From assembly GCF_025399835.1 (NCBI RefSeq), contig NZ_JAODVR010000001.1:1054001-1118000 (forward strand): 64,000 nt of DNA, given 5' to 3'. The notes beneath the pieces were generated by a model. That model searched no databases, had not been told where the DNA came from, and saw only the letters and a program-made list of their open reading frames with translations. Source of the stretch: Haloarchaeobius sp. HME9146 (GTDB lineage Archaea; Halobacteriota; Halobacteria; Halobacteriales; Natrialbaceae). Position numbers and translations under genes: made by a program. This document shows positions 5,480 to 22,141 of the stretch, one piece after another; within the stretch, counting starts at the first letter, position 1; each line of letters starts with the position of its first letter.

Positions 5480-7453
5480 TCAGTCGTCGGCTGGTGCCGC
5501 ACCGGAGCCGCCGGTCGCCTGCTCCTTCGTCCACGCGAGCTTGCCACCGAGGGCGAGCATGTCGCGCTCACGCTCGGACGCGTCGAGCGTCGCGGTGAAC
5601 TCCCAGTCGTCGTTGACGCGGACGGTGAACTCCTCCTGGCCGGAGTCGACACCCTCGCGGACGTCGTCGACGACCTCGAGGTCGTCGCCCTGCTCGAGCT
5701 TCTCGTACGTCTCCTCGTCGATGAGGTACGGCACGATACCGAAGTTGAACAGGTTGGCGCGGTGGATGCGCGCGAAGCTCTGTGCGAAGACGCCCTCGAT
5801 GCCGAGGTACATCGGACACATCGCGGCGTGCTCACGCGAGGAGCCCTGCCCGTAGTTCTCGCCGGCGACGAGGAAGCCGCCGTCGGCCTCGAGCGAGCGC
5901 TCGGCGAACGTGTCGTCGACACGCGAGAGCGTGAACTCGGAGAGCTTCGGGACGTTCGACCGGTACATCAGGATGTCCTGGGTCGCCGGGATGATGTGGT
6001 CGGTCGTGATGTTGTCGTCCATCTTCAGCAGCGCCTCGCCCTCGAGCTTGGCGTCGAGCTCGTCCTTCAGCGGGACGTCGCCGATGTTCGGGCCCTTGAT
6101 GAGCTCGTCGTCGACGGCCTCCTCGGGCGTGATGAGGTCTGCTTTCGAGCCGTCGTACTTGTCCGGCAGGACGTAGTCGGGCGCGTCGAGGTCGCCGAGT
6201 TCGTCGGCGAGGTCGCGCGGGTCGACGATCTCGCCCTTGATGGCGGCTGCCGCGGCGACTTCGGGGCTGCAGAGGTAGACGTTGTCGTCCTCGATACCGG
6301 AGCGGCCCTCGAAGTTGCGGTTGAAGGTACGCAGGGAGACGGAGTCGCTGGCGGGGACGTGACCGATGCCGATACAGGCACCACACGTCGCCTCGGAGAA
6401 GTTGACACCGGCGGCCATCATCTCCGCGACCCAGCCCTCACGGGCGAGCAGCTCGGAGGCCTGCTTCGAACCGGGTGCGACGATCATCTCGGTCTTCTTG
6501 TTGACCTCGCGGCCTTCGACCATCTTGGCTGCGGGGAGGATGTCCTCGTAGCCACCGTTCGTACAGGAGCCGACCATGACCTGCTCGACCTGCTCGCCCG
6601 CGACCTCGCGGACGGGCACGACGTTGTCGGGCATGGACGGGCACGCGATGAGCGGTTCGATGTCCGAGAGGTCGACGACGATGGTGTCGGCGTACTCGGC
6701 GTCCTCGTCGGGACCGACCTGTTCGTAGTCGTCCTCGCGACCCTGGCGTGCGAGGTAGTCCTTCGTCTTCTCGTCGGTCGGGAAGATGGAGGAGGTCGCA
6801 CCGAGCTCGGTACCCATGTTGGTGATCGTGGTGCGCTCCGGCACGGAGAGCGTCTCGACACCGGGACCGGTGTACTCGAGGACCTTGCCGACGCCACCCT
6901 TCACGGAGAGGCGACGGAGCAGCTCGAGGATGACGTCCTTCGCGGAGGACCACTCGGGGAGTTCACCCTCGAGTCGGACGTTGTGTACCTCGGGCATCTC
7001 GATGTAGTACGGGGCCCCACCCATGGCGACGGCGACGTCGATACCGCCGGCACCGATGGCGAGTTCGCCGAGGCCACCGGGCGTCGGCGTGTGGGAGTCC
7101 GACCCGAGCATCGTCTTGCCGGGTGCGGCGAAGTTCTCCTTGTGGACGTTGTGGCAGATACCGTTGCCGGGGCGAGAGAAATACGCGCCATACGTGCCCG
7201 CGGCGGAACGGAGGAAGCGGTGGTCGTCCGTGTTCTTGAAGTCGAACTGGTAGGTCTGGTGGTCGCAGTACTGGGCGGCGATCTCGGTCTGGACCTCGTC
7301 CAGGTCCATCGCCTCGAACTGCAGCCACACCATCGTCCCCGTGGTGTCCTGCGTGAGGACCTGGTCGATCTCGATCCCGATCTCCTCTCCTGTCTCGAGT
7401 TCACCTTCGACGAGGTGCTCCTCGAGAATCTTCTCGGTAAGAGTCTGTCCCAT
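5480..7453 (-). CDS. acn: aconitate hydratase
   Basis: A 657-residue aconitase, interconverting citrate and isocitrate in the TCA cycle. It has the [4Fe-4S] ligand motifs: the GSCTNGG cysteine near residue 297 and the CGAC pair near residues 357-360. The substrate-binding LGSDSHTPTPGG loop lies near residue 115, and a C-terminal swivel domain contains GENYGQGSSREHAA. The length fits the compact aconitase type common in haloarchaea, shorter than the roughly 900-residue AcnA. The frame extends to 7549, but the ATG at 7453 starts directly before the conserved N-terminus (MGQTLTEKIL). It is monocistronic, and the gap to 7702 holds the divergent promoters. Confidence 0.96.
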   Translation of the reverse strand: MGQTLTEKILEEHLVEGELETGEEIGIEIDQVLTQDTTGTMVWLQFEAMDLDEVQTEIAAQYCDHQTYQFDFKNTDDHRFLRSAAGTYGAYFSRPGNGICHNVHKENFAAPGKTMLGSDSHTPTPGGLGELAIGAGGIDVAVAMGGAPYYIEMPEVHNVRLEGELPEWSSAKDVILELLRRLSVKGGVGKVLEYTGPGVETLSVPERTTITNMGTELGATSSIFPTDEKTKDYLARQGREDDYEQVGPDEDAEYADTIVVDLSDIEPLIACPSMPDNVVPVREVAGEQVEQVMVGSCTNGGYEDILPAAKMVEGREVNKKTEMIVAPGSKQASELLAREGWVAEMMAAGVNFSEATCGACIGIGHVPASDSVSLRTFNRNFEGRSGIEDDNVYLCSPEVAAAAAIKGEIVDPRDLADELGDLDAPDYVLPDKYDGSKADLITPEEAVDDELIKGPNIGDVPLKDELDAKLEGEALLKMDDNITTDHIIPATQDILMYRSNVPKLSEFTLSRVDDTFAERSLEADGGFLVAGENYGQGSSREHAAMCPMYLGIEGVFAQSFARIHRANLFNFGIVPYLIDEETYEKLEQGDDLEVVDDVREGVDSGQEEFTVRVNDDWEFTATLDASERERDMLALGGKLAWTKEQATGGSGAAPADD

Positions 7454-7701
7454 AGCATCCTGAAATCCACCTCCCGCAACCATAAATCCCGCGTGTTTAT
7501 GGATGGAAGACCGTGCAGAATTCGCCGTCTCTGCTGTCGGTTCGTGCAACGTTTGCCGAGGGGCACAACAGACGCTGGACGCGGTCGCAGAGACCGGTCA
7601 GCAGGACCCACGAAGCCCGTACTCGTCGTCACGCTTTTGTCCAGTGCAGTCCTACAGGGGCGAAGATTCTTCACCGCCGGAACTGTCGGGTGATTCACAC
7701 C

Positions 7702-7986
7702 ATGGCAGACGACACTCCCTCGGTCTCCGTCACCGGGTACCTGGCCGGGCTCGCGGCGGCCATCGTACTCGGCACACTCGCCTACGGGTTCGTTCTCGTC
7801 CCGCTGCTGTTCGGAGACGCCGCGTTCGTCCAGGACACGTCGCGCCCGGACTCCCAGATGCAGGCCATCGGTCCCGGGTTCACGCTCCCGACCGTCCTCG
7901 GCATCGCCTTCGTCACGGTGGTCGCGGTCGCCCACGGCTGGCTCTACGTCAACTACCCGCGGCTGCTGGACGGGTTCGGTCGCTGA
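7702..7986 (+). CDS. small two-helix membrane protein of unknown function
   Basis: A 94-residue protein with two hydrophobic segments (about residues 9-36 and 60-80) separated by a short polar loop. I recognise no functional motif. The frame is open upstream to 7513, but that part reads as Arg/Ser-rich non-coding translation; the ATG at 7702 begins a normal acidic N-terminus. It is transcribed divergently from aconitase, with a 248-base gap between the two starts. Confidence 0.68.
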   Translation: MADDTPSVSVTGYLAGLAAAIVLGTLAYGFVLVPLLFGDAAFVQDTSRPDSQMQAIGPGFTLPTVLGIAFVTVVAVAHGWLYVNYPRLLDGFGR

Positions 7987-8071
7987 GCCGCCGGCGTCCC
8001 ATCGGGTGTGAGCAGGCCGCACACCGCCCAGAACCCGCAAACTACATTCCACTTCGTCGGACATCTCGCGT

Positions 8072-8551
8072 ATGCACCGTTCAGGCGCTTTCGTCGCAGA
8101 GCACGTGACACCGACTACCCCACAGCAGGTCCAGCCCAATGGGGTCGACCTCACGCTCGACGCCGTGTTCGAACAACGCGAGCCGGGGCGCATCGGCCGC
8201 GACGGCAAGGAGGTCGGCTCCCGGAGCGAACTCGAACCCGCCCAGTACGAGGACGACTCGCCGCCGACGCACTACCTCGAACCCGGCGGCTACGTGGTCC
8301 GGTACGCCGAGCGCATCCACATCCCCGAGGGCCACGTCGGCTTCCTCTACCCGCGCTCGTCGCTCCTGCGCAACTCCTGCATGCTGAACACGGCGGTATG
8401 GGACGCCGGCTACGAGGGTCGCGGTGAGGGCCTATTGCAGGTCCACCACGACATCGAACTGGAGGAGGGTGCCCGCATCGCCCAGCTCGTGCTCGCCGAG
8501 GCAGCCCACGAAGAAGAGTACGACGGCAGCTACCAGAACGAGAACCTCTAA
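8072..8551 (+). CDS. dUTPase / dCTP deaminase family protein
   Basis: A 159-residue trimeric-fold pyrimidine nucleotide enzyme. The family motif PRSSLLRN is at residues 94-101, followed by the substrate loop TAVWDAGYEGRGEG (107-120). In dCTP deaminases a Glu in the last stretch is catalytic, whereas dUTPases keep the Asp of DAGY-type motifs. From sequence alone this protein fits the archaeal dUTP diphosphatase/dCTP deaminase group, and I lean to dUTPase because of its short length and the NxxxWDAGY motif. It would keep uracil out of DNA and supply dUMP. It has its own promoter region after the preceding small membrane gene. Confidence 0.85.
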   Translation: MHRSGAFVAEHVTPTTPQQVQPNGVDLTLDAVFEQREPGRIGRDGKEVGSRSELEPAQYEDDSPPTHYLEPGGYVVRYAERIHIPEGHVGFLYPRSSLLRNSCMLNTAVWDAGYEGRGEGLLQVHHDIELEEGARIAQLVLAEAAHEEEYDGSYQNENL

Positions 8552-9538: not shown

Positions 9539-11515
9539 TTACTCCTCGCGGTCAGGGTGGTCGTGGAGTTCGGTGTCGACGCCGGGCAACGACCCGAGCA
9601 GGCGGTCGCGAACCTGATAAGCCGCGCTCCCGGCCCCGACGACGCCGAGGGCTCCGAGGCCGCCCGAGGAGACGCCCAGCACCGTGTTGTCCTCGGTCGT
9701 CTCGGGCAGCGGGGTCCACGTCTCGCCGCCGTCGGTGCTGTAGGAGACGGGGCCGAAGGTGTACGTCTGCGTGTTCTCCAGGCCGCTCGGGGCCTCTGCG
9801 AAGTAGGTCAGCTCGTCGCCTTCGGTGGGCAGGTCGAACGTGACTTCGGTCCGGCCGTTGACCGTCTCGGTCGTCGTGGCATCACCGCCGACGACGGCCC
9901 ACTCGGCTGGAATCTCGTCGCGGACCCGGACCTCGGTGTCGGTCGCGATGGTGAGGTCGACCCGGTTGGTCTGGCCGGCCGTGAACGTCGAGCCGTCGTC
10001 CTCGCGCTCGGCGGTGACGTGGGTCCCGCCGTCGGCGTCGAACGGGATGTACTCGTGCCGGAGCGCGTAGACGCCGGTGTTGATGTCCGCGGCGAAGGTG
10101 ATGCCGTCTCGCTCGACCGCGCCCCAGGTGAACGGGGTTGCGGAGTTCAACCCCTCCATCTTCGAGTCCTCGGGCACGTCCTCGTGGGGCAGGTAGTACC
10201 CCTTCTCGCGGAGTTGCCAGATGTCCGTGTCGATGTCGAGGTACCGGACGCCACCGTGGTAGTGGGCGAGGTGGACCCAGCCGTCCTCGGTCACGTCGAA
10301 ATTGTGCGGGCTCAGGGTGAAGTTCTGGAAGCTGGTGTCCGAGAGGAGCTCCCACGAGTCCAGTTCGGCCAGGTTGGGCGAGCCGTCGTACCCCTCGTCC
10401 AGCCCGTCGGCGTCGAGCAAGTAGAGTTCCCCCGAGGAGCCGCCGTCGACGCTCGGCGTCTCCTGTCCGGCGACGACGATGCGCCGGCCGTCCAGCAGGA
10501 CGGGCGCGGGTTCGGCGTAGTGCGCCCGGTCCATCTCGAACCGGCCGATCTCCTCGATGTTCGCCGGGTCAGAGAGGTCGAGTACGCGCAACCCCATGTC
10601 CCAGTACGAGAGGTAGCCGGTCGGTTTCCCGGTCCGGGGGTCGTCCTGGATGGTGATGTCGTGGATGTACTTCGTGCCGCCGGTGCCGACGCCACCGTCG
10701 CCGTCGATGGTCCAGCGGTTCACCAGCGTGAACTGGCCGGTCGCTCGGTCGAAGTGCAGCGCGTAGAGACCCGCGGTCCCGTCGGCGTCGAGGTCCTTGC
10801 AGGCGAAGACGTAGTCCTCGCCGCCGACCCGGTGGTAGGTGGCGTTGTGGCTCCCGGTCGTCCAGGCGGTGTAGGCCCCGACCACCTCGGGGTTGCCCTT
10901 GTCCCGGACGTCGACCGCGACGACGCTCCCCGCCGTGGCGTCGGTCGACTCGCCGTCGGTGCCGGGTGTCGGGTCCGTCTCGTTGAACAGCGCGGTGTAG
11001 GGCTGCTTCGAGAGAAAGACGTACGCGCCGTCCGCCGAGACCTTCACGTCCATCACGGCGGAGGCGGCGTCGTCGTTGCGGACGAACGAGAGCACCGAGA
11101 GCTCGGCGTTCCGCAGTTCGGTGAACGACTCGGCGTCGGTGAACTCGGAGATGTCGAGGATGGCCATGCCGCGGTCGTTCGTCGGGTCGTCCGAGGAGAA
11201 GAACCCGACGTAGGCGAAGTCGCCGTGGGTCCGAATCTCGGTGATGGCGCCGTAGTGTGGCTCCTCGGGCCGCCCCGCGTTGCTCGAGGTGCCGACGCCC
11301 CCGAGGCTGTGGTAGTCCAGCTTCTCGACGTTCTCGCTGTCGGTGTGCTGGGTGGGGTCGGTGTGGTCGTGGTCGCCGCTGGTCGTGGTGGACCCGCTGG
11401 AACCGAGGCCGTCGTGGGCGCTGGCGGTCCCGGTGGCAGCGAGGCCAAGGGCGCCCGCGGCCGCTGTCTTGATGACGGTTCGTCGGTCGAATCCGCGGTC
11501 TGTGTCGTGTGTCAT
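9539..11515 (-). CDS. Tat-exported LVIVD beta-propeller protein with shared C-terminal module
   Basis: A 658-residue surface protein. A Tat signal (FDRRTVIKTAAAGALG, residues 9-24) ends near the ATGTASA cleavage region. Residues about 50-490 form a beta-propeller with LVIVD-type strands such as GLRVLDLSDPANIEEIG. Residues 501-615 are a beta module (EDDGSTFTAGQTN onward to YTFGPV) that also ends two neighbouring subtilases. A hydrophobic helix near 610-630 may anchor it. Propeller proteins of this kind are thought to bind ligands or scaffold partners; no enzyme motif is seen. The start at 11515 has the same 13-base sequence upstream as the subtilase at 15264. It is last in a four-gene same-strand array, 43 bases after the preceding gene. 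Confidence 0.85.
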   Translation of the reverse strand: MTHDTDRGFDRRTVIKTAAAGALGLAATGTASAHDGLGSSGSTTTSGDHDHTDPTQHTDSENVEKLDYHSLGGVGTSSNAGRPEEPHYGAITEIRTHGDFAYVGFFSSDDPTNDRGMAILDISEFTDAESFTELRNAELSVLSFVRNDDAASAVMDVKVSADGAYVFLSKQPYTALFNETDPTPGTDGESTDATAGSVVAVDVRDKGNPEVVGAYTAWTTGSHNATYHRVGGEDYVFACKDLDADGTAGLYALHFDRATGQFTLVNRWTIDGDGGVGTGGTKYIHDITIQDDPRTGKPTGYLSYWDMGLRVLDLSDPANIEEIGRFEMDRAHYAEPAPVLLDGRRIVVAGQETPSVDGGSSGELYLLDADGLDEGYDGSPNLAELDSWELLSDTSFQNFTLSPHNFDVTEDGWVHLAHYHGGVRYLDIDTDIWQLREKGYYLPHEDVPEDSKMEGLNSATPFTWGAVERDGITFAADINTGVYALRHEYIPFDADGGTHVTAEREDDGSTFTAGQTNRVDLTIATDTEVRVRDEIPAEWAVVGGDATTTETVNGRTEVTFDLPTEGDELTYFAEAPSGLENTQTYTFGPVSYSTDGGETWTPLPETTEDNTVLGVSSGGLGALGVVGAGSAAYQVRDRLLGSLPGVDTELHDHPDREE

Positions 11516-11521
11516 GGAATC

Positions 11522-11534
11522 GTGTCGAATCGCT
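11522..11534 (-). promoter_or_regulatory. 13-base motif shared upstream of two array genes, copy 1
   Basis: The sequence gtgtcgaatcgct (as read on the + strand) lies 7 bases upstream of the propeller start at 11515. An identical 13-base copy lies at 15283-15295 upstream of the subtilase start at 15264. It is either a shared regulatory element or a trace of segmental duplication. Confidence 0.35.
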
Positions 11535-11558
11535 CGAAAACGGTTCGCTGGCGGTTCC

Positions 11559-13781
11559 TTACGTCTCCTCGGCGACGACCGCGTTGTCGTCGGTACCGCC
11601 GAAGGCGACCCACTCGTCGTCGGTCTCATCGCTCCGGGCGGTGGCGGGCCCGAAGGTGTAGGTCCCGGTGTTCGAACTCCCGCTGGGGGCCTCGACGAGG
11701 TAGCGGACCGTCCGGGCGTCGTCGGCCGGGTCGACGGTCGCGTCGAAGTGGACGTACTGGACGTCACCCGCCTGCTCGACGTGGCGCACGTCGGGCGAGT
11801 ACTCGGTGAGGACGGTCCACTCGGCCGGGACCGTGTCCCGAACCTCGGCCGTGTGGCTCACCGCGCCGACGGTCACCTCGACCTCGTTCGTCTGGCCGCC
11901 GGTGAACGTCGAACCGTCGTCGTCCCGGGAGCCGGCCACCGAGAGCCACGTCGGCGTGTCCGCGTCCACGAGGTCGGTCTCGTGGAACCGTGCGAAGTCG
12001 CCCGTCTCGGCCCGGCGGACCGCGGCCTCGGCGTCGACGAAGCCTGCCCCGGCGTTCCAGGGGGTGTAGGCCGTCTGCAGGTCGCGGGCCGTCGCCTCGA
12101 CGGTGTTGATGACCTCGATAGGGTGCGGGTCGTACCCGTTCTGCCGGGCCGCGTCGATGACGAGGGCGCAGACCCCGGCCGCGTTCGGGCAGGCCATCGA
12201 GGTCCCCGTCATCGGGGTGTAGTACGGCTCGGTGTCGGGTTCGAGCGCGTCCAGCGAGTCGGTCGGGCCGACGGTGGCCATGATGGAGTCGCCGGGGATG
12301 GCGACGCCGGGGCGGTAGAGGCCGACGGGCCGGTAGCGGGTCGGCTCGCCACCCAGCTCCTCGATGCCCTCGTAGTCGATGGTGTACGAGACCGTGACCG
12401 AGACCACGGGTTCGACCTCGACGTAGTACGTCTCACCGCCCGCGATGTCGGTCGTCAGGGTCCGGTGCTGGTGGACCACCTCCTCACCCATCTGGGCGAT
12501 GACCGGCCCGTCGCGGGACCCCTCGTGGACCGAGACGCGGACCTGCTCGCCGTCGGGCTCGATGTCGAGCGTCAGTTCCAGCATATCGGCGTTGGCCGGG
12601 GCTTCCCACTCCCAGAAGTCGCTCTCGGTCTGCGCGTCCGTCGTCGCCGCCGGCCCGACCTCGCCGGTCCAGGTCCCCACGTCCACGAGGAACTGGCCGG
12701 AGTCGACCGTGGCGTGGTAGCGCCAGAGTCGCCAGAGGGCGGTCGCGCGGTCGTAGTTGGTCTCGCGGTCCTCGTCGGGGGTGCGCCCCCGCGAGGAGAA
12801 GTCGGTGACCGCCTGCTGGTCGTTGGTCGCCGCGACACAGAGCACGTGGGGTGCCTTCGCGAACCGCGAGAGCGTGTCGGCGTCGGGCCCCGAATTGCCG
12901 GCGGCGAAGACGGGGACGATGCCCTCGGTGAAGGCCTCCCACGACGCGACGTTGACCGGGTCGTTCGGGTTGTACCGCACGTCGCGGGCGACGCCGTAGG
13001 AGTTCGACACCACGTCGGGGTCGAAGTCCACGTCCGGGTCGCGGGCCCGCATCAGCATGTGGTCCCACGCGCCGACGACGTAGGGCAGGTACACCGCCGT
13101 GTTCGTCGAGTAGACGGACAGCCGGGCACCCGGGGCATTCCCACGATACTGGCCGTCGCTGGCGCTCCCGTCCCCCGCGATGATGCCCGAGCAGTGGGTC
13201 CCATGGCCGAGGTCGTCGGTGTCGGCGCTGCCCCCGAGGTCGAGCCACTCGGCGTCTCGCGATTCCAGGGGCTCGTCCACCCACTGCCAGTTGGATTCGA
13301 GTCGTCCTTCGAAGTCGGGATGCGGGCCGCTGAAGCCGGAGTCGATGACGACGGCGTCGACCGAGGAGCCGTCGTAGCCGAGCTCGTCCTGGACCACGTC
13401 GACCCCGGTCAACTCGCGGGAGTCGTCGGTGAACCACTCGAGTTCCTCGGCCTTCTTGATGCGCCGGACCCCGTCCCAGTCGGCCACCGTGGTCAGCTGG
13501 TCCGGCGTCAGCGCGGTGTAGGTCATCGGCAGTTCGCGGTACTCGTGTTTCCCGACCTGCAGGTCGAGGTCGTCCAGCCGGCCCATCGACTCGCGCGAGT
13601 CGAAGACGACGATGCCCTCGATGGGGGCGTCGCCCGAGAGGTCGAAGGCGTCGTCGAGGGTGCTGGTGTCGGTTTCGGCGGCTGCAGTGCCGATGCCGCC
13701 GGCGAACGGGAGCGCCGCACTCCCGGCGAGGACGCCGAGTCCGTGCAGGACGGTCCGTCTGTCGAGTGTGTCGTGTGTCAT
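11559..13781 (-). CDS. Tat-exported S8 subtilisin-like serine protease with internal insertion and shared C-terminal module
   Basis: A 740-residue secreted subtilase. The Tat signal is LDRRTVLHGLGVLAG (residues 6-20). Catalytic residues are all present: D147 in VVIDSG, H193 in GHGTH, oxyanion N296 in AAGNSG and S528 in TGTSMACP. Between N296 and S528 lies an insertion of about 150 residues (333-485) with TYYVEVEP-type strands resembling a bacterial pre-peptidase C-terminal domain. Residues 612-740 carry the same module as the propeller and the largest subtilase. Processing at a propeptide (about 36-115) is expected. The neighbour at 13816 is a close paralogue 34 bases away. Confidence 0.92.
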   Translation of the reverse strand: MTHDTLDRRTVLHGLGVLAGSAALPFAGGIGTAAAETDTSTLDDAFDLSGDAPIEGIVVFDSRESMGRLDDLDLQVGKHEYRELPMTYTALTPDQLTTVADWDGVRRIKKAEELEWFTDDSRELTGVDVVQDELGYDGSSVDAVVIDSGFSGPHPDFEGRLESNWQWVDEPLESRDAEWLDLGGSADTDDLGHGTHCSGIIAGDGSASDGQYRGNAPGARLSVYSTNTAVYLPYVVGAWDHMLMRARDPDVDFDPDVVSNSYGVARDVRYNPNDPVNVASWEAFTEGIVPVFAAGNSGPDADTLSRFAKAPHVLCVAATNDQQAVTDFSSRGRTPDEDRETNYDRATALWRLWRYHATVDSGQFLVDVGTWTGEVGPAATTDAQTESDFWEWEAPANADMLELTLDIEPDGEQVRVSVHEGSRDGPVIAQMGEEVVHQHRTLTTDIAGGETYYVEVEPVVSVTVSYTIDYEGIEELGGEPTRYRPVGLYRPGVAIPGDSIMATVGPTDSLDALEPDTEPYYTPMTGTSMACPNAAGVCALVIDAARQNGYDPHPIEVINTVEATARDLQTAYTPWNAGAGFVDAEAAVRRAETGDFARFHETDLVDADTPTWLSVAGSRDDDGSTFTGGQTNEVEVTVGAVSHTAEVRDTVPAEWTVLTEYSPDVRHVEQAGDVQYVHFDATVDPADDARTVRYLVEAPSGSSNTGTYTFGPATARSDETDDEWVAFGGTDDNAVVAEET

Positions 13782-13815
13782 GGCTGGGTCGTGCGTCGTG
13801 CGGTGGTTGCTGGTT

Positions 13816-15264
13816 CTACGGTTCGGTGAGGGTCACGTCAGCGAAGGTCGCGAGGTCGCCCGATTCGGCCCGGGAGACCGCGGCCTCGGCGTCGACGAAG
13901 CCCGCCCCGGCATTCGCGGGGTTGTAGTCGCTCCGGGCCTCGTACGCGGTCGCCTCGACGGTGTTGAGGACGGCCATGGGATCGGGGTCGCCGTGGCCGT
14001 TCTGGCGGTGCGCGTCGATGACCAGCGCGGCGATGCCCGCCGTGACGGGGCAGGACATGGAGGTCCCGCTGATGGCGGCGTAGTACAGTGAATTGTCGGG
14101 CGCGGTCGCCTGGAGTGCGTCGGCCGGCGACATGGTGCTGTTGACCTGGTTGCCGGGGGCGGCGACCCCGTTGCGGTAGAGGCCGACCGGCCCGCTCGAA
14201 CTCCCCGAATCGTAGTACTCCTCGAGATTCGCGAGGGCGGTCTGGCGGTCGTAGTTCGCCCCCGTCGAGGCGGCGCGAGCCCGCGAGGAGAAGTCCGTGA
14301 TGGCCTTCTGGTCGGTGGTCGCGGCCACGCTCAGGACGTGTGGAGCCTTCGCGTAGTCGTTCAGGGTGTCGTAGTCCGGCCCGGAGTTCCCGGCCGAGAT
14401 GACGGGCAACAGGCCGCTGTCGAAGGCGGTCCAGGTCGCGGTCTGGAGCGTCCCATCGGGGTTGTAGTCGTCGGCGCTGGCCGCGCCGTAGGAGTTCGAG
14501 ACGATGTCCACGTCGGCGACGTGATTAGCGAGGATGTGGTCGTAGGCCGCGGCAGCCTTCAGGATGCTGACGGCCGCACCCGAGGAGTAGACGGTGAGGG
14601 CCGCACCGGGGGCCATCCCGCTGTCCTCGCCGTTGACGGAGCCGTCGCCGGCGATGGTGCCGGAGCAGTGGGTCCCGTGGCCGATGTCGTCGGTGTCGAC
14701 GAGGGTACCGCCGTCGACCCACAGCGTCGGGTCCCCGAGGGGGTTCCCGGCCCACTGGTAGTTGTGTTCGGCGGCTTCGATGAGATCGGGGTGGTCGCCG
14801 TCGAGCCCGGAGTCCACGACCGCGACGTGGACCGAGGAGCCGTCGTAGCCACTATCGTTCCGGACCGTGTCGACACCCGTGACGTCCCGTGCGTCGGCGT
14901 TGTGGTAGTCGAGGTCGCGGTTGCGCTCGACGTAGCGGACCGCGTCCCAGTCCGCGACGGTCTGGAGCTGCGAGCCGGTGAGCAGGGTGTAGCCGACCGG
15001 GAGGACGTCGAAGGCGAGGTAGCCCTCCGCGAGGTCGAGCGTGTCGAGCCGGGAGACGGCCGCGTTCGAGTCGAAGACGACGAGCGCCTCCTGGAGGGTG
15101 TCACTGGTCAGATCGAAGGCGTCGTCGAGGCGGTCGCCCGTCGCGCCTGCCGCGCTCCCGACCCCGAAGGGGAGGGCCGTCGCGCCTGCCAGCCCGGCCG
15201 TCGCCGTGAGCAGTGTTCGTCGGTCGAGTTTCGGTACGGTCTCGCGTGTCGTGTCGTCTGTCAT
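13816..15264 (-). CDS. Tat-exported S8 subtilisin-like serine protease, compact paralogue
   Basis: A 482-residue subtilase with Tat signal KLDRRTLLTATAGLAG (residues 12-27). The triad is complete: D151 (VVDSG), H196 (GHGTH), oxyanion N293 (AGNSG) and S402 (SGTSMSCP). It is closely related to its 740-residue neighbour along the catalytic core and in the final VDAEAAV-RAE segment, but has only a short loop where the neighbour has its 150-residue insertion. It ends at TLTEP, just where the neighbour goes on into the C-terminal module. The stop is a clean TAG, so this is a naturally short version or a truncation. The ATG at 15264 is chosen because the Tat motif sits close behind it. Confidence 0.92.
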   Translation of the reverse strand: MTDDTTRETVPKLDRRTLLTATAGLAGATALPFGVGSAAGATGDRLDDAFDLTSDTLQEALVVFDSNAAVSRLDTLDLAEGYLAFDVLPVGYTLLTGSQLQTVADWDAVRYVERNRDLDYHNADARDVTGVDTVRNDSGYDGSSVHVAVVDSGLDGDHPDLIEAAEHNYQWAGNPLGDPTLWVDGGTLVDTDDIGHGTHCSGTIAGDGSVNGEDSGMAPGAALTVYSSGAAVSILKAAAAYDHILANHVADVDIVSNSYGAASADDYNPDGTLQTATWTAFDSGLLPVISAGNSGPDYDTLNDYAKAPHVLSVAATTDQKAITDFSSRARAASTGANYDRQTALANLEEYYDSGSSSGPVGLYRNGVAAPGNQVNSTMSPADALQATAPDNSLYYAAISGTSMSCPVTAGIAALVIDAHRQNGHGDPDPMAVLNTVEATAYEARSDYNPANAGAGFVDAEAAVSRAESGDLATFADVTLTEP

Positions 15265-15282
15265 GGGTAGGGTATCGATGGT

Positions 15283-15295
15283 GTGTCGAATCGCT
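15283..15295 (-). promoter_or_regulatory. 13-base motif shared upstream of two array genes, copy 2
   Basis: This is the second copy of gtgtcgaatcgct (as read on the + strand), 18 bases upstream of the compact subtilase start. See copy 1 at 11522-11534. A shorter match, tctcgaatcgac, occurs near 18369 upstream of the largest subtilase. Confidence 0.35.
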
Positions 15296-15448
15296 GTCGT
15301 CTCGGTGCGCTCCCCTGGTCGCCCGTCGCAGAAAGGGGGAAGGGGGATGGTGGCCGCCGGGTCGACCACCACGTACAGTCAGTCCCTCGCCGCCGCCGTC
15401 GCCGGTTGCAGAGCGGGGCTGGTCGCCCCGTGGTGGACCCTCTCTGAT

Positions 15449-15489
15449 CCCGGCTGCCCGTGGTGGGGGTGGGGGAGTGGGCAGCCGGG
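15449..15489. terminator. 11-bp inverted repeat with G-rich loop downstream of the large subtilase
   Basis: The perfect arms cccggctgccc (15449-15459) and gggcagccggg (15479-15489) enclose a 19-base loop rich in G on the + strand. The + strand also contains four G-runs (ggggg, ggggg, ggg, gggg) spaced by short linkers, so it could form a G-quadruplex. It lies about 40-80 bases past the stop of the subtilase at 15531, and may end its transcript or separate it from the rest of the array. Confidence 0.45.
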
Positions 15490-15530
15490 GTCGTGACGAC
15501 GGGGCGGGTCATCGGGACTCGTGTCCCGGC

Positions 15531-18329
15531 TCAGGTGGACTGGGCGACCACGTAGTTGGTCTCGCCGGTGCCCGACACCGCGACCCAGCCGCGTGCTTCG
15601 CTCGGCTTGACCTCCTGCGGGCCGAACTGGTAGGCGTCCGAGGCCGAGACGTTGTCCGGGGCCTCGGCGAAGTAGGTGTAGCTCGTCTCGGTGTCGGCGG
15701 TCGCGGTCTCGGTGAAGTAGACGTACTGCACGCCGTTGCTCACCTCGACGCGGTCCACGTCGTCGGAGTAGTCCGTGAGGACGGTCCACGAGGTCGGAAT
15801 CACGTCCCGGACCTGGCTGTCTTCGGAGGGGTTCGCCGTCAGCGTGACCTGGTTGGTCTGGCCGCCGGTGAAGACGGAGCCGTCGTCGCTCCGGGTGCCG
15901 GCGACGAAGAAGCCGTCTTCGACCGAGACGTCGAGCGTGCAGTGTGCCTGCACGTCGTCGCCGTTGACCGCGCCGGGGACGTCCACGAGCTTCGCGACCA
16001 CGTAGAACGTCCGCTCCTCGCTGTCCCGCGGGAGCGAGACCGTCGCGCTGGCGTCACCCTGCAGGCCCTGTGCCCGGGCGACGATGTTGGGTTCGCCGTA
16101 CTGCGCCGGCTGCTCGGCGTCGTAGACGAACAGGTCGATGTGGGGCGTGCTCTTCGTCTGACCCTTGTTGCCGCCGGAGTAGTAGTCGAAGCTCACGCTC
16201 GCCTCGACGGTGCCGGGGCCGGCCTGGACGTAGCCCGCGACGGCGCGGCTGTCCTCGGGCAGGTTGAGGCCGAGCACCTCGTCGGAGCTACCCGAAAGCG
16301 GGCGAGTGACCGCGTCGACCGCGGCGTCGGCGTTCACGCGACCGAAGCCCTCGTAGGGGTCGCGCCCGCCGAACTCGTAGGTCGCGGGGTGGGCGCGGTG
16401 GAACGGGGCGGCGGTGAAGGCCGTCTCGCTGGCCGTCGCGAGCAGCACCTGCTTGAGCCGGTACACGTCGTCGAGGTCGGTCTCGGCGGGAGCTGGCAAC
16501 GCGATGCTCGCCGGGGCGTCCTCCTCCATCGCCTGCGAGACGAGGCCCGCCACGCCGGTCGTGAAGGGCGTCGCCATCGAGGTGCCGGCCTTGCCCGTGT
16601 AGTCGCGGATGGGCGGCTGGTCGGACTCCGCGGCGTTCGCGTCACCCGTGAGTGCCGCGTTGATGAGGTCGTCGACGTAGCCACCGGGCGCGCTCACGTC
16701 GGGCTTCATGTACTGGTCGAGTTCGTCCTCGTCGAGCGCCCCCAGGCCGCCGGAGGAGTACGCGCTGAGCCCGTCGAGGGGGCCGGTCGCGGTCACGGAG
16801 ATACACTCGTCCGCGATGGCGGGTGAGCCGTTCCCGTTGGCCGGGGTCGCCGCGTTGCCGGCGGCGGCGCAGGTGAGGATGCCGGCCTCGGCGATGTCCT
16901 TGATGCCGGCCGGAATCGAGTCGAGGATGCCACCCACGGAGCCGAGCGGGAGGCCGCCGACGTAGCCCCACGACATGTTCACGGCACGCATGTTGAACAT
17001 GTCCGCGAAGGCCTCGGCGTGGTCGGCGAGCTGGCCGGTCGGGCCGGAGAGGCCCTGCAGGCCGACGAGGCTCTGGTTCGGTGCGACGCCGGTGTGGAGG
17101 CCGACGGGGGAGCCGGTACGGTCGCCGTTCGTACTCTGCGGGTCGACGAACGCGCCGACGCTGATGGACTCGAGGTCGCCGGAGGAGACGAGTTCGCCGC
17201 CGGTCGCTCGGGCGATGACGGTGTAGGTCCCGGTCTGCTCGGCGGGGGCCTCGACGACGACGTTGTCGGTGATGCCCGAGTCGCTGGTCAGTTCGGCCGA
17301 GTCGAGCTCGTGCCCGTCAGGGCCCTCCAGGATGAGTTCGATGGCGGTCCCGTATGCAGACCCGAAGACGCCTGTGCCGGCGTCGGCCTGGACCTCGTAC
17401 TGGCGGGTGTCGCCCAGCGCGAGTACCTCGCCGGGGGCCTCGGTCGTGACGGTCTCCGGGTCGATGGCGCTGGCACGCCCGGTGCCGCCCATGATGGAGG
17501 CACAGTGGCTCCCGTGGCCGTTCGGGTCGCGTGGCTTCTTGTGGAGGCCGTAGCGCGTCCCCTCGTCGAACCAGCCGACCGTCTTCGGGTCGTCCCCGTC
17601 GGTACCGACGCCCTCGAAGACGACGCTCGGGTCGGCGGCCTCGAACTCGCCCTCGAGCGCGTAGTAGCCCGCCGAGATCTCGTAGTCGGCCGTGACGTTC
17701 AGCCAGGTCTCGACGACGAAGCGGTAGGTGTGGCCCGACTTCACGTAGTTGTCGATGGCCTCGGGCTGGCTGCCGGTCGTCGAGGCGGCGACGCGCTCCC
17801 AGCCGTCTGCCGTCTGCTTGTCGAGGTAGAGTTCGAGGTCCTCGCCGTTCCCGTCGACGTCGCCGGGCGTCCACGTCATCGTCGCGTCGATGCCCTCGGC
17901 GTCGGTCGGCGTGGTGAACTCGTGGGTCTTCGTCGTCGGGTCCGCGAAGGTGCCCGGCCCGATGGTGCCCGAGAAGGACTCGCCCTCGCCGGCGAGTTCG
18001 ACGCGTTCCTGTTCGGACTTCGGGATGACCAGTTCACCGTCGCGGACGGTCGCCCGGACCCCGTTCCAGGGGCCGAGGTCGGGGTGGCGGGCCTCGATAC
18101 CCGAGTCGGTCAGCGCGATGGTGCGGTCCGGCCGCCCGCGATAGCCGCGGTCCCAGACGCGGCTCGCCTCGCGGGCTCGCCAGTTGAAGAAGGTGGGGTC
18201 GAGCTCGCCGGCCGCAGCCGCCGCGGTACTGGCCGCACCCGCCCCGAGCAGCCCTGCTGCGGTGAGTGTGCCTGTCGTCTGGAGGAATGTGCGACGGGAG
18301 AGGTCGGCTGTGTCGTCGTCGCGAGTCAT
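15531..18329 (-). CDS. large Tat-exported S8 subtilase with two insertions and shared C-terminal module
   Basis: A 932-residue secreted protease. The Tat signal is LSRRTFLQTTG (residues 10-20) with an AAASTAAAAA-type cleavage region. The triad is complete but widely spread: D75 (LTDSG), H272 (NGHGSH), oxyanion N492 (AAGNAA) and S584 (AGTSMATP). About 190 residues separate D75 and H272, and another 110-residue beta domain (about 290-400) follows H272; both look like pre-peptidase C-terminal-type inserts. A jelly-roll-like region precedes the shared module (803-932). The start at 18329 has ggagg seven bases before it; the frame extends to 18473, but that would bury the Tat motif at residue 59. 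It is first in the four-gene array. Confidence 0.9.
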   Translation of the reverse strand: MTRDDDTADLSRRTFLQTTGTLTAAGLLGAGAASTAAAAAGELDPTFFNWRAREASRVWDRGYRGRPDRTIALTDSGIEARHPDLGPWNGVRATVRDGELVIPKSEQERVELAGEGESFSGTIGPGTFADPTTKTHEFTTPTDAEGIDATMTWTPGDVDGNGEDLELYLDKQTADGWERVAASTTGSQPEAIDNYVKSGHTYRFVVETWLNVTADYEISAGYYALEGEFEAADPSVVFEGVGTDGDDPKTVGWFDEGTRYGLHKKPRDPNGHGSHCASIMGGTGRASAIDPETVTTEAPGEVLALGDTRQYEVQADAGTGVFGSAYGTAIELILEGPDGHELDSAELTSDSGITDNVVVEAPAEQTGTYTVIARATGGELVSSGDLESISVGAFVDPQSTNGDRTGSPVGLHTGVAPNQSLVGLQGLSGPTGQLADHAEAFADMFNMRAVNMSWGYVGGLPLGSVGGILDSIPAGIKDIAEAGILTCAAAGNAATPANGNGSPAIADECISVTATGPLDGLSAYSSGGLGALDEDELDQYMKPDVSAPGGYVDDLINAALTGDANAAESDQPPIRDYTGKAGTSMATPFTTGVAGLVSQAMEEDAPASIALPAPAETDLDDVYRLKQVLLATASETAFTAAPFHRAHPATYEFGGRDPYEGFGRVNADAAVDAVTRPLSGSSDEVLGLNLPEDSRAVAGYVQAGPGTVEASVSFDYYSGGNKGQTKSTPHIDLFVYDAEQPAQYGEPNIVARAQGLQGDASATVSLPRDSEERTFYVVAKLVDVPGAVNGDDVQAHCTLDVSVEDGFFVAGTRSDDGSVFTGGQTNQVTLTANPSEDSQVRDVIPTSWTVLTDYSDDVDRVEVSNGVQYVYFTETATADTETSYTYFAEAPDNVSASDAYQFGPQEVKPSEARGWVAVSGTGETNYVVAQST

Positions 18330-18624: not shown

Positions 18625-20577
18625 TTAGGTACTGCGCGCGTCGTCGCCCTCGAACAGGCTCTCGAGCAGCTTGCGCTCGGCGACCCGGATGTGCTGGTGG
18701 AACGTCGGCGGGGTCACACCGAGGAGGTCGGCCATCTGGTCGCCCGAGGTCTCGCGGGGCCAGTCGAAGAAGCCGGCACGGTACGCCGTCTCCAGCACCT
18801 CCAGCTGGCGGTCGGTCAGCGACTGCTCGATGTCGGCCCGGTAGCCCACGTCGGTCCGCGTCCCGCGCTCGACCTCCCGCTGGGAGAGCAACTCCACCTC
18901 GAGCACCTCCGAGACGCGCTCGAGCACCCGGGAGACGGCAGTGTCGGTGGGGACGTCGGCCACGATGCGACACTCCCCGTCGCTGACCCGGACGGTCCGG
19001 ACCGACCCGCCCACGTCGGCGATGGTCTCGACGACGGAGTCACCGTCGACGACCACCCGGACGAGCGACTCGGCGTCGCGCTCGGCCAGTATCTCGACCT
19101 GTGCGGGAGCCGTCTCGACGAGGTCGTCGAGGTCCTCGAGCGCCTCGCCCCGCACCGCGAACAGCTCCGACACCGACCCATCCGGGTTGCTGACGGTCCC
19201 GGTGAGTTCCAGCGTCGCGTCGGTCTCGTGGGCGATCTGGACGAGGAACTCGTCCGGGTCGGTCACCGCGAACGTCAGTTCGGTGCGCGTGTCGGTCACC
19301 AGCGCCTTGCGCGTCTCGGCTGCCCGGATGGCGTGGCCGACCGTCTCGCCGAGTTCGGCCAGCACCGTTCGCTCCAGCGCTTCGAAGGCGAACGGCTCTG
19401 GCGCGTAGACGCAGAGGCAGCCGTACACCACGTCGTCGTAGACCAGCGGGATGGCCGCCGCGGACTCGTAGCCGTGGTCGAGCGCGGCCCGGCGCCAGGC
19501 GGTCGCGACCGGGTCCTCGGCGATGTTCTGGGCGAACTTGACCGACCGTTCCCGGACGGCGGTTGCGGCGGTCACATCGTCTTCCTGCCGCTCGACGGCG
19601 GCGGGGCGGTCCTCGAGGTAGGCGGAGCCGTCACCCGCCCAGGCGGTCGGCTCGACCCGGCCGCTCTCGGGGTCGTACTCACCGACCCACGCGAACTCGT
19701 AGGGGTCCGCGTCGGCGAACTGGTCACAGAGCGTCTCCTCTATCTCCTCGCGTGAGTCCGTCCGGACCAGCGCGCTCGTCACCCGACGGATGACGTCGTT
19801 GACCCGGTTCAGCGTCTCGAGCCGGTCGGCCTGTGCCTCGAGTTCGGCCTCGCGGCGGCGACGGTCCCGGATGTCCCGCCCGATGCCGCAGATGACCTGT
19901 CGGTCCCCGTCGCCGAGCAATGCGGCCGTGAACTCGTGGGGGCGCTCCTCGCCCGCTTTCGTCTGCATCCGCGCGGTCTCCATCGCCTTGCCCTGCATCA
20001 CGACGCGCCCGATGGCGTTCTCTATCTTCTCGTGCTCGTCTTCCGGGAAGAAGTCGGTCGGGCGCATCTCGCGGATCTCCCGGTCGCTGTAGCCGGTCAC
20101 GGCGGTGAGTTTCCGGTTCCACCGGAGGAAGTTCCCGTCGAGGTCGAAGACGAAGAAGATGTCCCGCAACTCGTCGAGGGCGGCACTGGCCAGGGTCGCG
20201 TGGCTGGCGCTTTCGGGCTGGTTCCGGACGAGGTTGTCGACGGTGGCGGCGAGGTGGTCGCCCCAGTCGTCGGTGGGGTCGCCACGTGGCACCGTCGCGG
20301 CTGCCCCGGAGTCGAGCGCGGTGGTCGCGGCTACGTCGTCCTCGTACACGTAGACGACCGGGGCGTCGTGCCGCCCGAGTGTCGCGACGAGTTCCGTGAC
20401 CGACCGGTCGTCGAGCGAACCACAGACCACGCACTGGACGTGTTCGTCGAGCATGTGCTGTGCGCTGGTGAGGGTCCCGGCGATGTGCGCCTGGAGCTCG
20501 CGGGCGGTGAGACACAGGCCGAGTGCGTCCGCGTCCTCGCCGTCGTCGACCACGAGGACCTCGACCTCACGTGACAT
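18625..20577 (-). CDS. bacterio-opsin activator-type regulator (receiver-like, PAS, GAF, HTH_10)
   Basis: A 650-residue sensor-regulator. Domains in order: a response-receiver-like fold (1-115, beginning VEVLVVDDGED), a PAS domain (about 140-255, with FFVFDLDGNFLRWN and the GIGRDIRDRRRRE end), a GAF domain (about 275-410), a Bat-type ligand domain (about 425-580) and a C-terminal HTH_10 DNA-binding domain starting LTDRQLEVLETAYRAGFF (about 590-640). Such proteins sense light, oxygen or redox state in haloarchaea, but the signal here is unknown. The open frame continues upstream to 21423, but that part is antisense to another gene. The ATG at 20577 starts the receiver domain and faces a divergent regulator. 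Confidence 0.9.
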   Translation of the reverse strand: MSREVEVLVVDDGEDADALGLCLTARELQAHIAGTLTSAQHMLDEHVQCVVCGSLDDRSVTELVATLGRHDAPVVYVYEDDVAATTALDSGAAATVPRGDPTDDWGDHLAATVDNLVRNQPESASHATLASAALDELRDIFFVFDLDGNFLRWNRKLTAVTGYSDREIREMRPTDFFPEDEHEKIENAIGRVVMQGKAMETARMQTKAGEERPHEFTAALLGDGDRQVICGIGRDIRDRRRREAELEAQADRLETLNRVNDVIRRVTSALVRTDSREEIEETLCDQFADADPYEFAWVGEYDPESGRVEPTAWAGDGSAYLEDRPAAVERQEDDVTAATAVRERSVKFAQNIAEDPVATAWRRAALDHGYESAAAIPLVYDDVVYGCLCVYAPEPFAFEALERTVLAELGETVGHAIRAAETRKALVTDTRTELTFAVTDPDEFLVQIAHETDATLELTGTVSNPDGSVSELFAVRGEALEDLDDLVETAPAQVEILAERDAESLVRVVVDGDSVVETIADVGGSVRTVRVSDGECRIVADVPTDTAVSRVLERVSEVLEVELLSQREVERGTRTDVGYRADIEQSLTDRQLEVLETAYRAGFFDWPRETSGDQMADLLGVTPPTFHQHIRVAERKLLESLFEGDDARST

Positions 20578-20731: not shown

Positions 20732-22141
20732 ATGAACGTCGATAGGGGCGGGACCGGGGGCTCGACGGCGGTGCTGGCGGTCGCCCTCGTGGTCCTCGTC
20801 GTCCTGTTCGGGACGGCCGCCGCCATGACAGCCCCGGTCCCCACCGGAAACCACGGCAGCACACAGCTCTCTTTCGACCTCGCCGACAACGAGACCGATA
20901 TCGTCGATGGCACGGTGGACGACACCACCGACACGACCGGCGACACCACGGAGGAGACCGTGGATGACACGACGAACACGACTGACGACACGACGAATAC
21001 GACCGACGACACCACGGAAACCGTGGAGAACACGACCGACGACACCGTCACCGCGTCCGGGTCGCTCTCGACCGACGTGACCACCGGCGACACCACGGCC
21101 TCGACCGACACGGACGCGACGCTCGACGACGGTCTCACGACGAACACCTCCGGTGAGACCTCGGGCACGGTCGACGGGTCCGGGAACGCGAGCCTCACTG
21201 CCGAGGAGGACGCGGTCTCGCTCTCGACCGACGCCAGCGTCGAGTCCGTCTCACTGTCGGCGGGTGTCGTCGTCCCCGTCGAGTCCTTGCTGACGGTGCT
21301 CGAATCCAGCGACCCTGCCACCGGGGAATCGACCGACAGCACCAGCCGCCGACTCGACCAGGCGGCGGCCCGCGGCGGCCAGTTCGCGCTCGGGTCGACC
21401 GGGGAGCAATCCGGCGCTGACACGGGCGGCCTCGACGGAACCGGCTACCAGCGCGCGGAAGCCGGCGGCGATGCAGGCTCCAGCGAGCCCGGCGGCACCC
21501 CCGGACCACTCCAGTCGGTCCCTGGCCCGGTCCAGACCGGCGTCCTCGTCGGGTCGCTGGCGGCTGGTGGCGCGGCCGCGACGCGGTGGCGGTCGATACT
21601 TCGTTGGCTCCGGAACGCGGTCGAGGACTCGCCGCTGGCGGCCGTGCTGCGCTACAGCCGGTACGACGGCTCGGACCCGCTGGCGCACGACGACCGCGAG
21701 ACCATCCACCAGGTCGTGACCGACGCCCCCGGTGTCTACCTCTCGGCTATCAGCGAGGCGTCGGGGGTCCCGCTCTCGACCGTGCGTCACCACGTCCGTG
21801 TTCTGGAGGAGGAGGACCTCGTCACCAGCGTGAAGATAGAGGGCAAGCGCCGGTACTTCCCGGCCGATACCGGCGACGTGGAACTCCACGCCGCCCTGTC
21901 GAACCCGTCGCGGGCCGCGATTCTCGAGCGGCTGGCCGAGACCGAGGGCACCCGGGTCGGCGAACTCGCGGAGGCCCTCGACCGCGACCCGAGCACCCTC
22001 TCACATCACCTCGGCCGCCTGGAAGACGCGGGGCTGGTCGAACGCGAACGCGAGGGACGGTCGGTGCTGAACCGGCTCACCCCGTCCGCCAGGGACGGGC
22101 TGGCGGCGGCAGCGGCAGAGCCATCGCTGGCAGACGATTGA
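20732..22141 (+). CDS. membrane-anchored regulator with two winged-helix domains
   Basis: A 469-residue protein. A membrane helix lies at about 11-33, followed by a long Thr/Asp/Ser-rich, probably exposed segment (about 50-230) with DDTTNTT-type repeats. A second hydrophobic stretch follows near 265-285 and then a cytoplasmic part. That part carries two winged-helix domains: ISEASGVPLSTVRHHVRVLEEEDLV (about 340) and VGELAEALDRDPSTLSHHLGRLEDAGLV (about 410). The layout fits haloarchaeal membrane-bound helix-turn-helix proteins that could couple a surface signal to transcription. It is divergent from the Bat-type gene, with a 154-base gap between their starts. Confidence 0.8.
   Translation: MNVDRGGTGGSTAVLAVALVVLVVLFGTAAAMTAPVPTGNHGSTQLSFDLADNETDIVDGTVDDTTDTTGDTTEETVDDTTNTTDDTTNTTDDTTETVENTTDDTVTASGSLSTDVTTGDTTASTDTDATLDDGLTTNTSGETSGTVDGSGNASLTAEEDAVSLSTDASVESVSLSAGVVVPVESLLTVLESSDPATGESTDSTSRRLDQAAARGGQFALGSTGEQSGADTGGLDGTGYQRAEAGGDAGSSEPGGTPGPLQSVPGPVQTGVLVGSLAAGGAAATRWRSILRWLRNAVEDSPLAAVLRYSRYDGSDPLAHDDRETIHQVVTDAPGVYLSAISEASGVPLSTVRHHVRVLEEEDLVTSVKIEGKRRYFPADTGDVELHAALSNPSRAAILERLAETEGTRVGELAEALDRDPSTLSHHLGRLEDAGLVEREREGRSVLNRLTPSARDGLAAAAAEPSLADD
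20905..21060 (+). repeat. Thr/Asp-rich low-complexity coding repeat
   Basis: Degenerate units of 12-15 bases, mostly gacgacacgac and acgaatacgac variants, encode DDTT/NTT motifs in the exposed segment of the membrane-anchored regulator. They encode likely O-glycosylated spacer sequence. They are not direct repeats with unique spacers and do not form a CRISPR array. Confidence 0.6.

Follow-up and report, generated by a model that had tools for sequence, protein, structure and literature searches.

The locus examined here raises the question of what a single C-terminal module may do when it is joined both to exported proteases and to a propeller without enzymatic activity. In the window (the whole 64,000-nt stretch of DNA that was analysed) four genes lie head to tail on the minus strand, from 18329 to 9539, in the transcription order S8c, S8b, S8a and propeller, with intergenic gaps of 267 bp (S8c/S8b), 35 bp (S8b/S8a) and 44 bp (S8a/propeller). 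S8c (15531..18329) encodes an S8 subtilase of 932 aa in which Peptidase_S8 (PF00082) is matched in two stretches (E 6e-31); its catalytic domain holds beta inserts and the module stands at its C-terminal end. ORF and Pfam analysis identified S8b (13816..15264; 482 aa) and S8a (11559..13781; 740 aa) as further S8 subtilases, the former without and the latter with the C-terminal module, and the fourth gene (9539..11515) encodes an LVIVD-type beta-propeller of 658 aa with the module and a C-terminal tail. All three subtilases score 104.9-109.4 bits against PF00082 (cutoff 21.8; E 1e-30 to 1e-31), and the D/H/N/S catalytic motifs can be read intact in the sequence of each. The propeller passes the LVIVD (PF08309) cutoff at 23.5 versus 20.2 bits, and the structure model of the 658-aa protein has a propeller-like fold. 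A twin-arginine motif and a hydrophobic stretch near the N-terminus can be read in the sequence of 4/4 array proteins, which are thus predicted Tat substrates; the Pfam TAT_signal model scores below its cutoff for them. These results bear out an earlier note on this DNA, which had described four consecutive exported proteins, namely three complete S8 subtilases and a propeller. S8b and S8a are 46-55% identical outside the module; their comparison agrees with the note that the 482-residue subtilase lacks the module, and their alignment suggests a PPC-like insert ahead of the catalytic Ser of S8a.

The module occupies residues ~809-932 of S8c (the last ~124 residues; 15534..15905, minus strand), ~615-740 of S8a (11562..11939, minus strand) and ~500-617 of the propeller (9665..10018, minus strand), as placed by sequence comparison and, for the S8c and propeller copies, by structure models as well. 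The S8a and propeller copies are 39-49% identical to that of S8c, and two-sequence BLASTP of the modules gave E values of 8e-24 (S8a/S8c), 9e-16 (propeller/S8c) and 4e-18 (propeller/S8a). The homology that the note had claimed for the ends of these three proteins is thereby upheld, with ranges that agree within a few residues. The genome that contains the window has exactly three modules, all of them in the array. With a length of ~120 residues and the conserved pattern DDGS-F-GGQTN / RD-P-W / EAP / FGP, the module received no domain assignment when whole proteins and modules were compared with curated Pfam and NCBIfam. Among 66 diverse modules, DUF11 (PF01345) was matched by six at E <= 0.1 (best 6e-4), leaving 60 without a match, NEW3 (PF10633) was matched weakly by four, and PPC (PF04151) by none; PPC matches fall in other regions of the M14 partner proteins. 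A profile search of PDB sequences with the module yielded nothing convincing, the NCBIfam models for the type IX secretion CTD and PGF-CTERM sorting matched neither whole proteins nor modules, and searches of the literature library found no paper on the module. The possibility that it is a common, already described domain was therefore rejected, since no curated Pfam or NCBIfam family fits most members. An AlphaFold prediction from 67 aligned modules gave a confident Ig-like sandwich of ten strands (mean pLDDT 95.8), and the best Foldseek matches were mostly Ig-like sandwiches, including adhesin, integrin and cohesin domains, at TM 0.4-0.66 and 7-18% identity. Judged by the fold model, the module forms an Ig-like domain family of its own with a distant likeness to DUF11; it is uncatalogued in the libraries searched, real, and recurrent among haloarchaea.

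Several known domains resemble the module in fold or placement. DUF11/TIGR01451 repeats and NEW3 share the Ig-like sandwich, and the DUF11 strand pattern 'D-x-P-x-x-W/L-x-V' is found in the module too; however, DUF11 surface repeats occur in tandem, whereas the module is single-copy, always C-terminal, has its own motifs, and in most members has no Pfam match. The module profile also has weak matches in repeat proteins of the phylum's other orders. Archaeal and clostridial cohesins (2xdh, 2vo8, 2jh2), which mediate assembly, have a similar sandwich topology (TM ~0.5-0.57), but no sequence similarity was detected between them and the module, and TM values in this range do not justify placing the module in their family. 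The type IX secretion CTD of Bacteroidota, itself a single Ig-like domain, forms the extreme C-terminus of many exported hydrolases that are otherwise unrelated. The module shares this placement but not the sequence, and it is found on archaeal Tat substrates, which have no outer membrane to cross and for which no sorting machinery was found. PGF-CTERM/archaeosortase tails provide a C-terminal surface-retention signal in haloarchaea; the module, in contrast, is a folded domain without a PGF motif, and its hydrolases have no membrane segment. Choice-of-anchor B/LVIVD propellers (TIGR04312, PF08309) likewise have an LVIVD propeller followed by a C-terminal attachment region that varies, but the propeller of the window scores 28.8 bits against TIGR04312, far under the cutoff of 100, and the libraries searched do not record the module for that family. 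Among Ig-like accessory and attachment domains the module is unusual for its partner range and strict position.

A class-wide search found the module in 38/391 sampled Halobacteria genomes and 20/86 genera, with 1-12 copies in each positive genome; of the six genomes sampled from the window's genus, two are positive. A scan of 84,980 species found 54 loci, all haloarchaeal, with the single peptide pattern FT[GA]GQT[ND][QRE][VI], which derives from a closer module set and may miss divergent or non-haloarchaeal copies. In the phylum-wide search the extra matches in other lineages were weak and came partly from tandem-repeat proteins, and no module was found in phage records. In Haladaptatus and Halocatena there are module copies on plasmids, annotated by the catalytic domain alone. 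S8c-type subtilases are present in 36/391 genomes, all 36 among the 38 module-positive ones, and propeller homologues in 25/391, of which 23 are module-positive. S8b homologues were found in 57/391 genomes, many of which lack the module altogether, and are independent of it; S8b-type matches in four genomes (G019, G100, G306, G252) contain one in-frame TAG or TGA and are probably broken genes or sequence errors.

The profile search proposed in the earlier note shows that every recurrence of the module is at the end of an exported protein. In 169 distinct modules it is always the last domain, present as a single full copy per protein, and nearly all hydrolase copies end <= 6 residues from the C-terminus. 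A twin-arginine motif is present in 158/169 module proteins (~93%), and the remainder include truncated frames. The partners comprise three S8 types, S15+PepX_C proteins (X-Pro dipeptidyl peptidases), M14 carboxypeptidases, Metallophos/Pur_ac_phosph_N proteins and LVIVD propellers, while a few match no family; what they have in common is export, not substrate. Three unusual partners are a Vgb-lyase-like/PKD protein (L113:7179-8636), a calcineurin-like phosphoesterase (L107:7874-10366) and a protein without a Pfam family (L130:7841-10411). In L072, L074, L127, L128 and L135 several module-bearing propeller genes stand in tandem on one contig, so that propellers seem to have multiplied in a number of metagenome-assembled genomes. 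In the module tree, in which many forks are unresolved, the partner types need 26 label changes versus 91.7 when labels are shuffled, and the propellers need 3; this indicates that most fusions are ancient and have been passed down, with some exchange between hydrolases. Recent tandem copying of the module inside the array was rejected, as each of the three modules in the window is nearest to a module of the same protein type elsewhere. A clean, module-less version of S8a also exists.

Next, we compared gene order in other Halobacteria, where the array proved to be conserved in part; similar gene order recurs in other genomes, and the idea that the array is unique to this strain was rejected. 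The commonest neighbour of module genes is an S8b-type subtilase (26 distinct), and no recurring dedicated sorting or attachment gene was found beside them. Where a hydrolase gene adjoins a propeller gene, both proteins carry the module in six loci (the window, L035, L043, L097, L111, L103) and neither does in four (L154, L155, L156, L166), and one pair is mixed (L105, in which the propeller gene is frameshifted). Joint presence or absence gave a Fisher p of 0.015, or 0.005 without L105, in this hand-assembled set of 11 loci, the p values ignoring relatedness. Propeller-subtilase adjacency persists where both proteins lack the module, and many module-bearing propellers are not adjacent to proteases. 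The note's suggestion of an extracellular protease set with a propeller partner thus gains circumstantial support from neighbours that mostly both have or both lack the module and from the persistent adjacency. In several families the subtilase loci are bordered by genes for aconitase and dCTP deaminase, at 5480-8551 in the window and also in L035, L049, L050, L090, L104, L161, L162, L164, L165 and L166, some of these loci having one gene only; the flank extends to loci without any module, suggesting that it marks a recurrent syntenic site.

The propeller of the window runs ~41 residues past its module (9542..9664, minus strand) into a short Gly/Ala-rich hydrophobic segment followed by a basic one, a putative membrane anchor on hydropathy. 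Its best 17-residue hydropathy is 1.64, which is marginal; propeller tails are weakly hydrophobic overall (17-residue mean 0.55-1.64), and the window's tail was modelled at low confidence, so that the membrane anchor stays a proposal. The 35 module-bearing propellers are bimodal, 19 with <= 5 residues behind the module and 16 with a tail of 31-46 residues. That every propeller has an extra tail was rejected, since a subset with a late insertion in the module ends there. In the module-less propellers of L154 and L166 a hydrophobic-basic tail directly follows the propeller; that of L156 has no tail and that of L155 is disrupted near its end.

Two genes near the array encode possible regulators. 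HTHmem (20732..22141, plus strand; Pfam HTH_20, PF24266) is a predicted membrane-bound one-component winged-helix regulator. Its N-terminus is hydrophobic, and it also holds a long stretch rich in Thr and Asp, a further hydrophobic segment, which is weak, and two winged helices. Such regulators, often divergent to S8c, were noticed in the window and in L043, L048, L049, L050, L091, L093 and L102. In all, 9/53 S8c genes have a divergent HTHmem homologue, ~110-440 bp away for seven of the loci and 2.4 kb away for the window and its same-genus relative; four further homologues stand beside other module genes. The fetched DNA, 2.65 Mb in all, has only 20 HTHmem-type ORFs; since it was chosen around these loci and overlaps in part, the count shows linkage and not a genome-wide rate; the window's genome has one full-length copy. 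HTHmem is therefore a candidate sensor-regulator of the array or of the wider set, as predicted from its sequence and position. A bat-like PAS-GAF-BAT-HTH_10 gene (18625..20577, minus strand; Pfam) is the next gene upstream of S8c, in the same orientation, and possibly regulates the array too, a weaker case than HTHmem: similar ORFs occur near module genes in 13 loci, and the family is common. Further along the window, 26810-28912 (minus strand) encodes a protein of 700 aa that looks exported: its long stalk is rich in Thr (TTTT-ESG), and a hydrophobic segment stands at the C-terminal end. The gene is the probable cause of the strong AT skew (-0.34) between 26 and 28 kb.

What, then, would the module do? 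Haloarchaea export many proteins folded through Tat. Our preferred reading, held tentatively and at somewhat below an even chance, is that the module may be a lineage-specific Ig-like C-terminal attachment domain that serves surface retention or positioning of a Tat-exported haloarchaeal degradative set. Module-bearing enzymes and propellers would be exported folded, after which the module would bind a common envelope component, such as a membrane-tailed propeller, the S-layer or another surface protein; the hydrolases would thereby stay near the cell and their digestion products would not be lost to the brine. Tailed propellers, with or without the module, would be the membrane-tethered members of the set, and HTHmem, from its gene position and predicted topology, would probably tune expression to outside conditions. 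The C-terminal placement, the shared export signal, the wide partner range, the Ig-like fold model, the partial synteny, the mostly matching module state of adjacent pairs and the linkage of HTHmem to S8c argue for retention; 19/35 propellers that end tail-less at the module, the weak hydrophobicity of the propeller tail, and the lack of a recurring sorting gene next to module genes, argue against it. Since no membrane segment follows the module in the hydrolases, retention requires a separate receptor. A bolder version takes the module for a dedicated archaeal sorting and retention domain analogous to the type IX CTD, with one receptor and a regulated surface degradosome that would include the membrane-tailed propeller and the membrane-bound regulator; we consider it unlikely. 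The earlier note had offered a common docking, anchoring or activation step, and of these anchoring or positioning is plausible, docking is weakened by genomes with a lone S8c, and activation limited to proteases is contradicted by the phosphatases that carry the module.

A serious rival, possible though it persuades us less, is that the module could be an accessory domain that binds substrate or stabilises the enzyme, gripping salted-out proteins and resisting autolysis in the manner of the SptA extension and P/jelly-roll domains. Where a subtilase has a C-terminal beta-sandwich extension, this often binds substrate or stabilises the enzyme. In SptA, a haloarchaeal subtilase, a beta-sandwich extension behind the catalytic domain binds insoluble substrate, and the enzyme without it has lower activity on protein substrates and lower stability (PMC3158780). 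Most partners of the module are peptidases, and such a role fits the genomes that have a lone S8c. However, the SptA extension is halolysin-specific and has two conserved, disulfide-forming cysteines (PMC3158780), whereas the module is common to five protein families and has essentially none (any Cys in 6/173 modules). Its presence on metallophosphatases and non-enzymatic propellers, which need no protein grip, favours a positional role. Module-module docking, in which propellers would be membrane-tailed scaffolds for module-bearing hydrolases in a protease-propeller complex, appears improbable. It agrees with the propeller adjoining a hydrolase in several lineages with module presence or absence mostly shared, and the near-single lineage of propeller modules in the tree may represent a complementary partner version; but at least six genomes have a lone S8c as the single module protein and no module-bearing propeller, so that docking cannot be the general rule unless divergent partners escaped the search. 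The propellers located away from proteases and the adjacency that persists with no module on either protein also count against it, and joint presence could stem from shared ancestry of whole loci. Least likely, in our estimate, is a mobile Ig-like filler without attachment function that recombines among neighbouring Tat genes and perhaps helps folding before export. The patchy distribution, within the window's genus as well, the swaps among hydrolase types in the tree and the module-less S8a would all fit such a filler, but S8c-type subtilases are confined to module-positive genomes, modules mostly follow partner type, and the strict C-terminal position with its highly conserved motif pattern implies selection.

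A practical consequence is that one profile finds the set of proteases, carboxypeptidases, dipeptidyl peptidases, phosphatases and propellers. An uncatalogued domain family is defined and linked to a predicted membrane-bound regulator. Little is known of the means by which haloarchaea hold soluble hydrolases close to the cell, and a shared domain of this kind would give a direct handle on that question.
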